NCBI GenBank assembly: GCA_017504265.1
Contig: JAFVRN010000039.1
Location: forward strand, 1-34,374
Source of the DNA: Alistipes sp.
GTDB lineage: Bacteria; Bacteroidota; Bacteroidia; Bacteroidales; Rikenellaceae
Length of the DNA: 34,374 nucleotides
Direction: 5' to 3'
The position numbers and the translations under genes were made by a program. Positions 2,355 through 34,319 of the stretch are shown here, one piece after another; position 1 is the stretch's first letter; each line of letters starts with the position of its first letter. A model generated the notes under the pieces. That model made no database searches. It was not told the DNA's origin and worked only from the letters and a program-made list of their open reading frames with translations.

Positions 2355-2384
2355 ATGACAGAGTGCGGGTGATAAGATGTCAGT

Positions 2385-2415
2385 TTTGAGAATTCAACTT
2401 TTTTTAGTACCTTTG
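2385..2415 (+). promoter_or_regulatory. lepA promoter (Bacteroidetes type)
   Basis: TTTG at 2385-2388, a 19-bp spacer and TACCTTTG at 2408-2415 match the primary-sigma consensus of Bacteroidetes exactly. Transcription would begin near 2422. This places an in-frame upstream ATG at 2377 outside the transcript and decides the lepA start at 2437. Confidence 0.85.
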
Positions 2416-2436
2416 CACAATATATATCTACTAAGG

Positions 2437-4227
2437 ATGAAAAATATACGCAACTTTTGTATCATAGCCCATATCGATCACGGTAAGAGTACCCTTGCCG
2501 ACCGTCTATTGGAAAAGACTAATACTTTGAACCAGCGAGAGATGCAGGCTCAGGTGTTGGACGATATGGACCTGGAACGCGAGAAGGGTATCACCATCAA
2601 GAGCCACGCTATACAGATGGAGTACAAGGCACGTAATGGCGAGAACTATGTGCTCAACCTTATCGACACCCCGGGACATGTCGATTTCTCGTATGAGGTG
2701 TCACGTGCCATCGCTTCGTGTGAGGGCGCACTACTTGTGGTGGATGCCACACAGGGTATACAGGCACAGACCATTTCAAACCTATATCTCGCTCTGGGTC
2801 AGGATCTCGAAATAATACCTATTCTCAATAAGATTGACTGTGAGTCGGCGATGATCGACGAGGTCAAAGATCAGATTATCGACCTTATAGGCTGCAAGGA
2901 GGAGGAGATACTTCTGGCCTCGGGTAAGACGGGTCAGGGTGTAGAGGAGGTGTTGGAGGCTATCGTAGAGCGCATACCTGCACCCAAGGGCGACGAAAAT
3001 GCTCCGTTGCAGGCACTCATCTTCGACTCGGTATTCAACCCTTTCCGTGGTGTCATAGCATATTTCCGTGTGATGAACGGCACGCTGCGCAAGGGCGACC
3101 ACGTAAAGTTCTTCAATACGGGTAGCGAGTATGATGCCGACGAGATTGGTGTGCTGAAATTAAAGATGGTGGAGCGTGGCGAGATTAAAGCCGGCGACGT
3201 AGGATATATCTGCTCGGGTATCAAGAACTCAACAGATGTAAAGGTGGGCGATACCATAACCTCGGTAGCCAGCCCATGTCAGGAGGCCATAGCAGGCTTT
3301 GAGGATGTTAAGCCTATGGTCTTTGCAGGTGTCTATCCCGTTGAGGCTGACCAATATGAGGATCTGCGTGCCTCGCTCGAAAAACTTAAACTCAACGATG
3401 CTTCGCTTACCTTCGAGCCCGAAAGCTCGCTTGCTCTCGGCTTCGGCTTCCGATGTGGTTTCCTCGGCCTGCTCCATATGGAGATCATACAGGAGCGTCT
3501 GTATCGTGAGTTCGATATGGATGTCATTACTACCGTTCCCAACGTGTCGTACCATATCACCACTACGCAGGGTGAGGAGCTCGAAGTACACAACCCTTCG
3601 GGACTCCCCGAGATTACCAAGGTGGCAAAGATAGAAGAGCCATACATCCTCGCTCAGATAATAACCAAAGCAGACTTTCTTGGCAACGTCCTAAAACTAT
3701 GTATCGACAAGCGTGGTGTTATGAAGAATCAGACATTCATCACGCAGGATCGTGTCGAGGTAAACTTCGAGATGCCGCTATCCGAAATCGTCTTCGATTT
3801 CTACGATAAGCTCAAGAGTATATCTAAGGGGTATGCCTCATTTGACTACCACCGCACAGGTTATCAGCCAAGTAAGCTCGCAAAACTCGATATTCTGCTC
3901 AACGGCGAGGCTGTCGATGCACTATCGTCACTCATATATGCCGACCACGCCTACGACTTTGGCCGCAAGATGTGCGAGAAGCTGAAAGAGCTTATACCCC
4001 GTCAGCAGTTCGATATAGCCATTCAGGCAGCTATCGGTGCCAAGATTATTGCACGTGAGACTGTTAAGGCTGTGCGTAAGGATGTTACGGCCAAGTGTTA
4101 TGGCGGCGATATCTCTCGTAAGCGTAAGCTCCTCGAGAAACAGAAGGCGGGTAAGAAGCGTATGCGACAGATTGGCTCGGTTCAAGTGCCTCAATCTGCC
4201 TTTTTGGCTGTGCTTAAAATGGATTAA
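2437..4227 (+). CDS. lepA: Elongation factor 4 (LepA), translational GTPase
   Basis: LepA (EF4) is a ribosome-binding GTPase of the EF-G family. The protein is 596 aa, the usual length. The G1 P-loop AHIDHGKST is at residues 11-19, followed by the switch regions ([21 protein letters not shown]) and the G4 motif NKID near 130. The EF-G-like domains and the LepA-specific C-terminal domain follow (ending [22 protein letters not shown]). The ATG at 2437 is chosen because [19 protein letters not shown] is the family N-terminus, the preceding AAGG resembles a ribosome-binding site, and the promoter at 2385-2415 lies inside the longer frame. The gene appears monocistronic. Its stop codon abuts a structured element at 4226-4354 that resembles the one after der. 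Confidence 0.97.
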
Positions 4228-4354
4228 TTTGTTGTGATAAGGGGTCATCTACTGCCGCTAACGAATTATCTCAGCAATGGGCAGTACGCTTAAGTACAGC
4301 CCATCGCCTCGAAATTCGCCGAGCGTTGTATCTAACCCCTTCTGACAACAAATT
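4226..4354 (+). ncRNA. Putative structured RNA element in the lepA 3' region (copy A)
   Basis: A nested set of helices closes this segment. P1 is 4226-4235 with 4345-4354 (10 bp). P2 is 4239-4245 with 4335-4341 (7 bp). P3 is 4251-4255 with 4325-4329. P4 is 4262-4267 with 4313-4318. P5 is 4277-4282 with 4299-4304. P6 is 4284-4287 with 4294-4297, with loop GCTTAA. Internal loops GAT/CTG lie between P1 and P2, and CATCT/ATCTA between P2 and P3. The same architecture and loop sequences recur after der (34145-34266), with compensating base changes in the helices. P1 begins inside the lepA stop codon. There is no U-tract, so it is not a simple terminator. The function is unknown, and the family is not one I can name. 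Confidence 0.65.
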
Positions 4355-4384
4355 GGGGTTTAACCGCTGATTATCCCGAGTGTT

Positions 4385-4429
4385 GTGGGTTCAGTGGGTT
4401 CAGTGGGTTCAGTGGGTGCTGTGTGTTCT
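4385..4429 (+). repeat. 9-nt tandem repeat, GTGGGTTCA type
   Basis: Three exact copies of GTGGGTTCA (4385-4411) are followed by two degenerate copies (GTGGGTGCT, GTGTGTTCT). Four GGG runs spaced exactly 9 nt apart fit a G-quadruplex pattern with 6-nt loops. The rest of the 386-bp spacer 4228-4613 holds the RNA element upstream and about 180 bp before the fucosidase gene, in which I see no clear promoter or gene. Confidence 0.8.
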
Positions 4430-4613
4430 GAGTTATGAATGGTATCAAGTCCTAATGAGAGCCTTAGGGCAGTTGAGACCATTGAGATGGTTGCGGCTGA
4501 GAGGTCGTAGCACTCTTATAAGTTCTATCAGTGGAAAGCATGATAAAGTGTCACACGCAGCGTAGTTGCCCTGCATAAAATAACCGATTATAACAAATCG
4601 AAAACCTAAAATA

Positions 4614-14659: not shown

Positions 14660-14913
14660 CTCCGCTTTGCGGAGTGGGTTCGGTGGGTTCAGTGGGTCTT
14701 ATGGGTCCTGTGGGTCCTGTGGGTCTTATGGGTTCTGTGGGTTCTATGGGTTCTGTGGGTTCTGTGAACGCGGTGGAAAAATCCCCATCTAACCCATTGG
14801 ACCCATTTAACCCATCTGACCCACACTGCTTCGCAGTGGTAGGGCACAGCCCTGCAAAACAAAAGCCCATCTCCCTTCACTACACTTCAACTACCCTTTA
14901 ACGCCGCAGGCGT
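14660..14913. repeat. Intergenic repeat island: 9-nt G/C tract and short hairpins
   Basis: The 432-bp spacer 14630-15061 carries ten GGG runs exactly 9 nt apart (14676-14759, unit GGGTTCTGT with variations). A 22-bp gap follows, then five CCC runs, also exactly 9 nt apart (14784-14822), so the two tracts can pair as an inverted repeat. Four small perfect hairpins with 3-nt loops surround it: 14660-14674 (6-bp stem), 14824-14838 (6 bp), 14841-14853 (5 bp) and 14901-14913 (5 bp). Open frames across the tract encode only GSVGSM-like repeats and are not credible genes. The remaining sequence to about 14980 shows no gene. Confidence 0.8.
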
Positions 14914-32838: not shown

Positions 32839-34143
32839 ATGAGTTTGGTAGCTATCGTCGGCCGCCCTAATGTGGGCAAATCAACACTTTTTAACCGCTT
32901 GGTGGGACAGCGTCAGGCAATCGTCGATGAGACGGCCGGAACAACGCGTGATCGCCACTACGGCAAGACCGATTGGAACGGAAAGGAGTTCTCTGTTATT
33001 GACACGGGCGGATATACCGTAAACTCGGAGGATATCTTCGAGGATGAGATTCGTCGTCAGGTTATGCTCGCTATTGATGAGGCTGACCTCATACTCTTCC
33101 TTGTCGAGGTGCGTACAGGTATCACCGACCTCGATATGATGATGGCCGATATATTGCGTCGCTCGGGCAAGAAGGTAATGCTCGTATGCAACAAGGTGGA
33201 TACCTATGACCTTATCTACTTCTCTCACGAGTTTCATGCCTTGGGACTCGGCGAGCCGTTCTGTATCAGCTCTATGTCGGGCAGTGGTACAGGCGATATG
33301 ATGGATGCCATCCTTGCCAACCTCCCCGATGATACTACTGCCGAGTATGATGCTTCGTTGCCTCGTATCGCCATCGTGGGTCGCCCCAATGTAGGTAAGT
33401 CCTCTATGACAAACGCGCTTCTTGGTCAGGAGCGAAACATCGTGACCAATGTTGCAGGTACTACGCGTGACTCGATACATACGCGCTATAACATGTACGG
33501 TATGGACTTCTACCTTATCGACACTGCCGGTATGCGTAAGAAGGGTAAGGTTACCGAGGACTTGGAGTTCTACTCTGTGATGCGCTCGATACGTGCTATC
33601 GAGAACTCCGATGTCTGCGTGCTTATGCTCGATGCCGAGCAGGGCATAGAGTCGCAGGACCTGAATATTCACAACCTTATTGTCCGCAACCGCAAGGGTT
33701 GTGTTATCGTTGTAAATAAGTGGGACTTGGTTGAGAAGGATAGCAACACCATGAAGGAGTGGCGTGAGTTCCTCGAAAAGAAACTTGCCCCATTTAGCGA
33801 TATACCTATCATCTTCACCTCGGTAATCAACAAGCAACGTATCTTGGATGTGTTGCAGGCTGCAATACGTGTATACCAGTCGCGCAAGCGTCGTATATCT
33901 ACATCGGAGCTCAACGACTTCTTCTTGCCGCTTATCGAGAACTATCCACCTGCATCAATCAAGGGTAAGTATATCAAAATCAAGTATGTTACGCAGCTGC
34001 CTACACCTACGCCTCAGTTTGCATTCTTCGTGAACTTGCCACAGTATATCAAGGAGTCGTATCGTCGTTTCCTCGAGAACAAGTTGCGTGAGCAGTGGGA
34101 TTTTTCGGGAGTGCCTATTCAGATATACTTCCGTCAGAAGTAA
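32839..34143 (+). CDS. der: Ribosome biogenesis GTPase Der (EngA)
   Basis: An essential double GTPase that assists 50S ribosomal subunit assembly, 434 aa, the normal length. The first G domain has GRPNVGKST at residues 8-16, [18 protein letters not shown] and NKVD near 118. The second has [16 protein letters not shown] near 179, [22 protein letters not shown] and NKWD near 294. A KH-like C-terminal domain follows ([30 protein letters not shown]). It has its own promoter. Directly after the stop lies a structured element (34145-34266) resembling that after lepA, then a terminator at 34294-34319. Confidence 0.97.
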
Positions 34144-34144
34144 A

Positions 34145-34266
34145 TTTTTGTGATAGCGGCGCATCTGTCGCACCTCAATCGTTGGCTCGAATGGGAAATA
34201 CGCTTAGTATGTCCCATCCGAGCCAACTTCTTTATCGGCGCAACATCTGCACCGCTCTGACAAAAA
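34145..34266 (+). ncRNA. Putative structured RNA element in the der 3' region (copy B)
   Basis: The helices correspond one-to-one with copy A after lepA. P1 is 34145-34151 with 34260-34266. P2 is 34155-34161 with 34250-34256 (one C-A mismatch). P3 is 34167-34171 with 34240-34244. P4 is 34181-34189 with 34219-34227 (9 bp). P5 is 34191-34196 with 34212-34217. P6 is 34198-34201 with 34207-34210, with loop GCTTA. The internal loops GAT/CTG and CATCT/ATCTG are the same as in copy A. The element starts 2 nt after the der stop. A separate intrinsic terminator follows 28 nt later, so termination is not its only role here. Confidence 0.65.
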
Positions 34267-34293
34267 ATTGGTCTCGCGCTTTGGATGGTTATG

Positions 34294-34319
34294 GCTTTCC
34301 CACTTGGGAGGGCTTTTTT
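34294..34319 (+). terminator. Terminator of der
   Basis: An 8-bp stem with two G-T pairs (34294-34301 with 34306-34313, loop ACTT) followed by six T. Confidence 0.85.

Follow-up and report, generated by a model that had tools for sequence, protein, structure and literature searches.

Two segments of the window, a 34,374-nucleotide stretch of Alistipes sp. DNA, carry copies of a hairpin element some 128 nt long, which in most cases starts at its host gene's stop codon and recurs behind dozens of unrelated genes. With even confidence, we regard it as a new family of non-coding dispersed hairpins, mobile or recently mobile and similar to REP, ERIC and MITE repeats, whose folded strand would be recognised by an enzyme and which would be targeted to, or retained at, the ends of genes. 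The two segments (4226-4354 and 34143-34269) were confirmed as a first-pass annotation of the sequence had described them. Copy 1 extends from 4227 to 4354 and copy 2 from 34143 to 34269, both on the minus strand, so that the folding strand is antisense to the host genes lepA (elongation factor 4; 2377 to 4227, plus strand; TIGR01393, 995.9 bits, cut-off 533.9) and der (32839 to 34143, plus strand; TIGR03594, 542.8 bits, cut-off 306.7). Both genes end in TAA, at 4225-4227 and 34141-34143, respectively, and in both the first base of the element is the last base of the stop codon. Covariance models R1 and R2 score copy 1 at 145.9 and 118.2 bits, and copy 2 at 86.0 and 108.9 bits, on the minus strand; on the plus strand copy 1 obtains 68.0 and 62.8 bits, the minus strand being the one on which both models were built.

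Comparison of the two copies agreed with the initial observation that the helices differ in sequence while the unpaired parts are alike. The fold was then assessed in an alignment, on the antisense strand, of 75 non-redundant copies from seven genomes. Out of 124 hits, 79 were kept (non-redundant, at least 45 bits, two cut copies dropped) and 75 of these were aligned, leaving out L050_945, L207, L074 and L119_9940. In the 30-pair structure, 95.3% of the cells are paired, as opposed to 76.1 in shuffled controls, and double changes occur at 23 of the 30 pairs. The covariation score is 0.519, compared to 0.155 after shuffling and 0.122 in the best slid control, and none of 500 shuffles reaches 0.519; the structure was partly drawn from the same sequences, which gives it an advantage in the controls, but the margin is nonetheless large. 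Covariation, as claimed in the first-pass annotation, thus goes beyond chance in a diverse set of copies, and the fold of the element is real.

The features of the fold are given here for copy 1, on the minus strand; those from P1 to P3 were mapped by hand. Helix P1 pairs 4227-4235 with 4345-4353 (columns 3-11 with 132-140 of alignment A6) and consists of an A-run facing the T-run that adjoins the stop codon, followed by three covarying pairs and conserved G-C/U-A pairs. A C.C mismatch, present in 68 of the 75 copies, separates P1 from P2, a helix of very variable sequence (4237-4247 with 4333-4343). Between P2 and P3 lies a tandem G.A mismatch (4248-4249 with 4331-4332), probably of sheared geometry, where G.A is found in 43/75 and A.G in 38/75 copies. 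P3 (4250-4252 with 4328-4330) covaries across the 75-copy set. The distal part (4277-4304, coordinates from the window sequence) is formed by an AUGGGC/GCCCAU stem and a terminal GUAC/GUAC stem closed by a 6-nt loop; the four terminal pairs form in 75/75 copies, the first being G-C in 61 and A-U in 14. A further conserved position is G.A in 45/75 copies and A-U in 22/75.

The antisense strand of the lepA and der copies folds with z-scores of -10.4 and -11.8, respectively, beating all 200 shuffles and far better than the sense strand, whose own scores (-6.4 and -7.8) were equalled by 0/200 shuffles. Wobble pairs were counted in the 75 copies in a sign test that is indicative only, as the copies share ancestry. 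Read antisense, P2 has 95 G-U against 4 A-C cells, with a G-U excess in 61 copies and an A-C excess in 2; the corresponding numbers are 25 against 4 in P3 and 18 against 12 in P1. The distal stem, with pairing fixed, goes in the direction opposite to P2 and P3 (5 G-U against 23 A-C). Many cells are unpaired there, and this reversal, which we tentatively attribute to register shifts of the alignment between subfamilies, was given little weight. Altogether, the G-U pairs and the tandem G.A mismatches point to the strand antisense to the host gene as the one that folds better, which is not the strand considered at first pass. What stands of the initial proposal of a structured RNA in the 3' region is a conserved, covarying, structured element; its reading as a sense-strand RNA is weakened because it is the antisense strand that carries most of the wobble pairs. 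The first-pass annotation had not recognised the element as a named family, and Rfam searches returned none for it: the whole window gave no match at the gathering threshold, the lepA element none up to an E-value of 5, and six loci from relatives gave two matches up to 0.5, both away from the element.

In BLAST searches, the lepA copy matched the source genome of the window (G000; other G-numbers denote compared genomes) 52 times, fragments included, G003 40 times, G006 26 times, G011 57 times and G004 once, with two fragments in G008 and no match in seven other congeners or in eight genomes of other families. Model R1 detected the element at no fewer than 54 distinct places in G000 and gave 45 matches in G058, corresponding to 43 places since two were counted on both strands. 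With up to 150 candidates scored per genome, it gave 143 matches in G003, 92 in G011 and 84 in G006, which are not always separate places, as weak matches may be counted on both strands. Seven matches in G005 and one in G012 were obtained with R1 despite the negative BLAST result in the seven congeners; G001, G002, G007, G009 and G010 gave none. Within the family Rikenellaceae the distribution is patchy, the broader model R2 matching at least 82 of 200 genomes, in 6 of 22 genera; among 395 genomes sampled across the class, R2 matched at least two besides G000, both weakly; R1 matched at least 3 of 295 genomes sampled across the order (G000, G213 and G279). All of these are lower bounds, obtained under stricter filters with up to 17 (family), 8 (class) and 11 (order) candidates scored per genome. 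The weak matches in G213 (L207 and L209, neighbouring copies near contig ends) and in G279 (L208) come from two other families of the order and possibly represent a wider superfamily. Contigs of named genomes with an exact match to the core (8 stretches) were all from metagenome-assembled Alistipes sp. of goat, yak and roe deer. An origin from phages or plasmids was discarded, as the exact core pattern was absent from viral contigs and neither plasmids nor phages gave a blastn match to the lepA copy. In G000, contigs C22, C30, C34, C13, C5 and C7 carry copies at, or less than about 700 nt from, their ends; assemblies thus probably break in the arrays, and the true number of copies may be higher than counted.

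Many copies in G000 share a right-hand extension, which in the window covers 4355 to 4450 on the plus strand and comprises a conserved segment of about 35 nt followed by 9-nt repeats of the TGGGTTCAG type. Such tandem repeats, found at 4385-4450 and 14665-14782 in the window, trail many element copies in G000 and run on into small hairpins (TGGGTTC facing GACCCA repeats, then CACTGC...GCAGTG and GCAGGGC...GCCCTGC). The element, the repeats and the small hairpins together make up a longer composite 3' unit in this genome. Behind the der copy, a terminator-like hairpin with a T-run is seen by eye at 34293-34319, which places the der element between stop codon and terminator.

Placement relative to genes was measured in stretches retrieved from G000, G003 and G058, mostly picked around known copies, with contig C64 of G003 alone read whole; genes were longest-ORF calls made in the analysis. 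The start of 57 of 85 arrays falls between -12 and +5 nt from a sense stop codon. The proportions are 19/29 in G000, 29/37 in G003 and 9/19 in G058, against 0.07, 0.10 and 0.05 expected from random non-coding positions (p = 1e-15, 3e-22 and 1e-7, respectively). The exact junction was located for 22/41, 58/88 and 11/37 copies of the same three genomes, and no spacer separates the stop codon from the T-run of the element at 13/22, 26/58 and 8/11 of these junctions. All three stop codons are represented. TAG is rare in G000 (1/22 junctions versus 85/220 in the background), which fits with the element supplying the final A residues. In G003, TTT directly follows the stop codon in 29/70 element-adjacent genes as compared to 20/470 others. 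The idea that stop codon and T-run together form a Bacteroidales -7 promoter box was dropped, since many junctions do not fit it.

By the automatic rule, 28 of the 85 arrays lie outside the -12 to +5 interval. Visual inspection showed many of them to be preceded by a shorter ORF, by 11-21 nt left over from the left end of an older copy, or by the T-tract of a terminator; a handful stay unexplained. At L058 (9752-9772), L060 (8185-8204) and L068 (7490-7506), remnants of a left end, 17-21 nt long (TTTTTGTGATAGCGGC...), separate the stop codon from an intact copy, as if copies entered or replaced older ones at a preferred point. In G004 orthologues that serve as empty sites, roughly 15 to 100 nt separate the stop codon from the terminator (by eye); that copies are nonetheless found within a few nucleotides of the stop is a difficulty for a model based purely on selection. 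Such crowding argues, short of proof, that the element is targeted or that its function depends on touching the stop codon. Terminators within 120 nt of the stop were scored behind 35/178 non-host and 24/65 host genes in G003 (11/65 hosts when counted behind the array), and behind 18/80 and 1/20 in G000 (4/20 behind the array); the scan detected terminators behind few genes of any class, so that these counts speak neither for nor against replacement of terminators.

Orientation was analysed using the GC skew of the fetched pieces as a proxy for replication direction, the G-rich strand being presumed to be the leading one. On a 294-kb contig of G003, 28/28 copies point the same way, among genes that are divided 155 to 65 between the minus and plus strands. 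Over ten contigs of this genome, the host gene is on the G-rich strand for 76/84 arrays versus 364/578 genes overall (p = 1e-8, with arrays that are not independent). Four of the 8 contrary arrays belong to contig C65, whose skew is near zero (-0.008); contig C57, counted in favour, is also near zero (+0.007). In G058, orientation is mixed on two contigs (5:3 on C3 and 5:5 on C4). If the G-rich strand is indeed leading, it is the leading-strand template that carries the well-folding strand. This polarity would keep the strongly folding strand in the configuration reported for attC bottom strands of sedentary (chromosomal) integrons (PMC5371416).

For 181 of 189 copies the nearest relative is in the same genome, so copies multiplied and spread within lineages; the sample is uneven, with 86/189 copies from G003, and favours same-genome neighbours. 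Identity reaches 96% or more across 120 nt or more in 122 pairs of copies; G000 accounts for 108 of these pairs, and some pairs belong to one tandem array. Nine G000 loci were compared to their G004 orthologues, none of which has the element directly at the stop codon, where a terminator is often found instead (by eye). At one G004 locus (L203), two copies lie about 60 nt past the stop, behind a terminator. Between these genomes, the stop codon differs at L051, L058_6259 and L060 and is the same at L055, L066 and L067. Behind lepA, the element was seen by eye at 1/19 loci, that of G000, but among closer relatives lepA is a recurrent site. In a set of 30 lepA loci (G000 plus 29 relatives), 17 have a model match a few nucleotides from the stop, some shortened, four carry remnants, eight lack the element and one is cut by the contig end; the loci were best matches to an element-containing query, which biases occupancy upward. 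Immediately behind lepA, relatives carry elements of other subfamilies or truncated remnants, and the six genomes with the G000 subfamily at this site are not a clade in the lepA tree (midpoint-rooted, without support values). The site thus persists while the copy that occupies it changes, either because copies insert anew or because they convert one another, and the comparison between species suggests that the element has moved. At several lepA loci (L310 in G004, L304, L291, L295, L298 and L301), a tRNA-like sequence replaces or soon follows the element or its remnant (by eye).

The first-pass annotation had tentatively tied its RNA to genes of translation and ribosome assembly, both copies in the window being behind genes for ribosome-associated GTPases. 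Reading 66 host genes instead revealed unrelated housekeeping functions: 8 of 10 scanned host proteins exceed the NCBIfam cut-off, as LepA, Der, DnaK, MreB, AspS, L20, MnmG and RlmH, and the other two fall below it. Only 2 orthologous host pairs are common to the fetched parts of G000 and G003. With at least 54 copies in one genome, behind hosts of this kind, and 1/19 lepA loci occupied, an RNA specific to lepA and der is refuted and retains a negligible probability. The first-pass annotation had named a palindromic mobile repeat, with hits in either orientation, among the outcomes that would count against it; this is largely what was found, except that the orientation is fixed rather than random.

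The same data bear on what the element does at stop codons. It could be a cis-acting element of the host mRNA 3' end, REP-like, in which a stem at the stop slows termination or ribosome release, or protects a trimmed 3' end. The zero spacers at close to half or more of the located junctions in G003, G000 and G058 are in line with such a role, as is the folding of the sense strand, and ribosomes are reported to stall at Escherichia coli REPs that lie within 15 nt of a stop codon (PMC12306157). However, the excess of antisense G-U pairs in P2 means that sense RNA has A.C mismatches there, many genomes lack any match and lepA sites have truncated or absent copies; overall we find this explanation rather unlikely. 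Less probable still is a structured RNA from the antisense strand, which would act as an independent small RNA or serve as the template when the element is copied in the manner of a retroelement, with cDNA primed at the gene end. G-U wobbles and tandem G.A and C.C mismatches, all of which occur on the antisense strand, are typical of RNA, and P1, P2 and P3 covary; yet folded single-stranded DNA also has G-T wobbles, and reverse transcriptases do not track the carriers.

A dispersed mobile hairpin is the reading that we favour. In outline, a putative enzyme would recognise the folded single strand, DNA or RNA, and move the element, and copies would have inserted at, or survived only at, the boundary between the stop codon and the 3' untranslated region. 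A more specific version, which we put forward only tentatively, is that the element is directed to sites of translation termination: it would insert at leading-strand stop codons in a fixed orientation, sensing where translation of the message ends, or the state of transcription or replication there, and not a DNA motif. All three stop codons occur at the junction. Repeats that avoid genes are common; a start at the stop codon, a single orientation and dozens of unrelated hosts point to a choice of target linked to translation, transcription or replication. To our knowledge, a one-orientation stop-codon repeat has no bacterial precedent beyond loose parallels with REP and MIRU, and literature searches aimed at repeats placed at stop codons showed none among the entries listed. 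With the element, housekeeping mRNAs acquire a 128-nt fold at their 3' ends that could influence termination, the ends of the mRNA and the stability of the genome, and the covariance model provides a tool to find the element and to ask which protein tracks it.

Candidate partners were sought by profile searches. Among 24 genomes, the Y1 transposase domain (PF01797) was in no carrier, its sole match being in G080, which has no element match; a RAYT partner was thus rejected for the carriers searched. RVT_1 occurs in non-carriers and was not found in the carriers G000 and G011, whose assemblies cover only part of the genome (90% and 78%), so that a reverse transcriptase partner was likewise set aside. 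No element was found at 19 reverse transcriptase or Y1 loci searched. Integron integrase (TIGR02249) exceeded the cut-off in 0/24 genomes; matches below it occurred in 24/24 genomes and in 14/14 controls, as expected of other tyrosine recombinases.

Compared with known systems, the element resembles the REP/REPIN sequences of Enterobacteria and Pseudomonas, which go with RAYT transposases, in being a lineage-specific extragenic palindrome dispersed in many copies (54 places in G000, 143 matches in G003), and some REPs lie just behind stop codons (PMC12306157). REPs measure 20-40 bp (PMC3733652), whereas the element reaches about 128 nt and has internal loops that are conserved. It also differs in starting right at the stop codon and in keeping a single orientation, and its carriers searched have no Y1/RAYT gene. 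ERIC and other MITE-like repeats (RUP, Correia/NEMIS) are intergenic hairpins of similar size, the length of ERIC/RU-1 being given as 127 bp (PMC2759123). The ends of the element are complementary (P1), and inspection of the listed junctions by eye showed no target-site duplication. What sets the element apart from this group is the stop-codon junction, the replication polarity and the presence of non-canonical motifs in one of its strands. The attC sites of integrons follow a stop codon in fixed orientation, as the element does, recombine through the folded bottom strand and are bounded by the boxes RYYYAAC/GTTRRRY, which were not seen by eye in the element. A folded bottom strand and, for the attC sites of sedentary integrons, its place on the leading-strand template are further likenesses (PMC5371416). 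Relics of integron cassettes would account for this combination, but with no integrase above the cut-off in 24 genomes, no cassette array and copies dispersed behind housekeeping genes, this origin is already largely refuted and seems very improbable. MIRU of mycobacteria overlap the stop and start codons of neighbouring genes in a fixed orientation, and in this the element is like them; unlike the element, MIRU lie within operons and carry reading frames.
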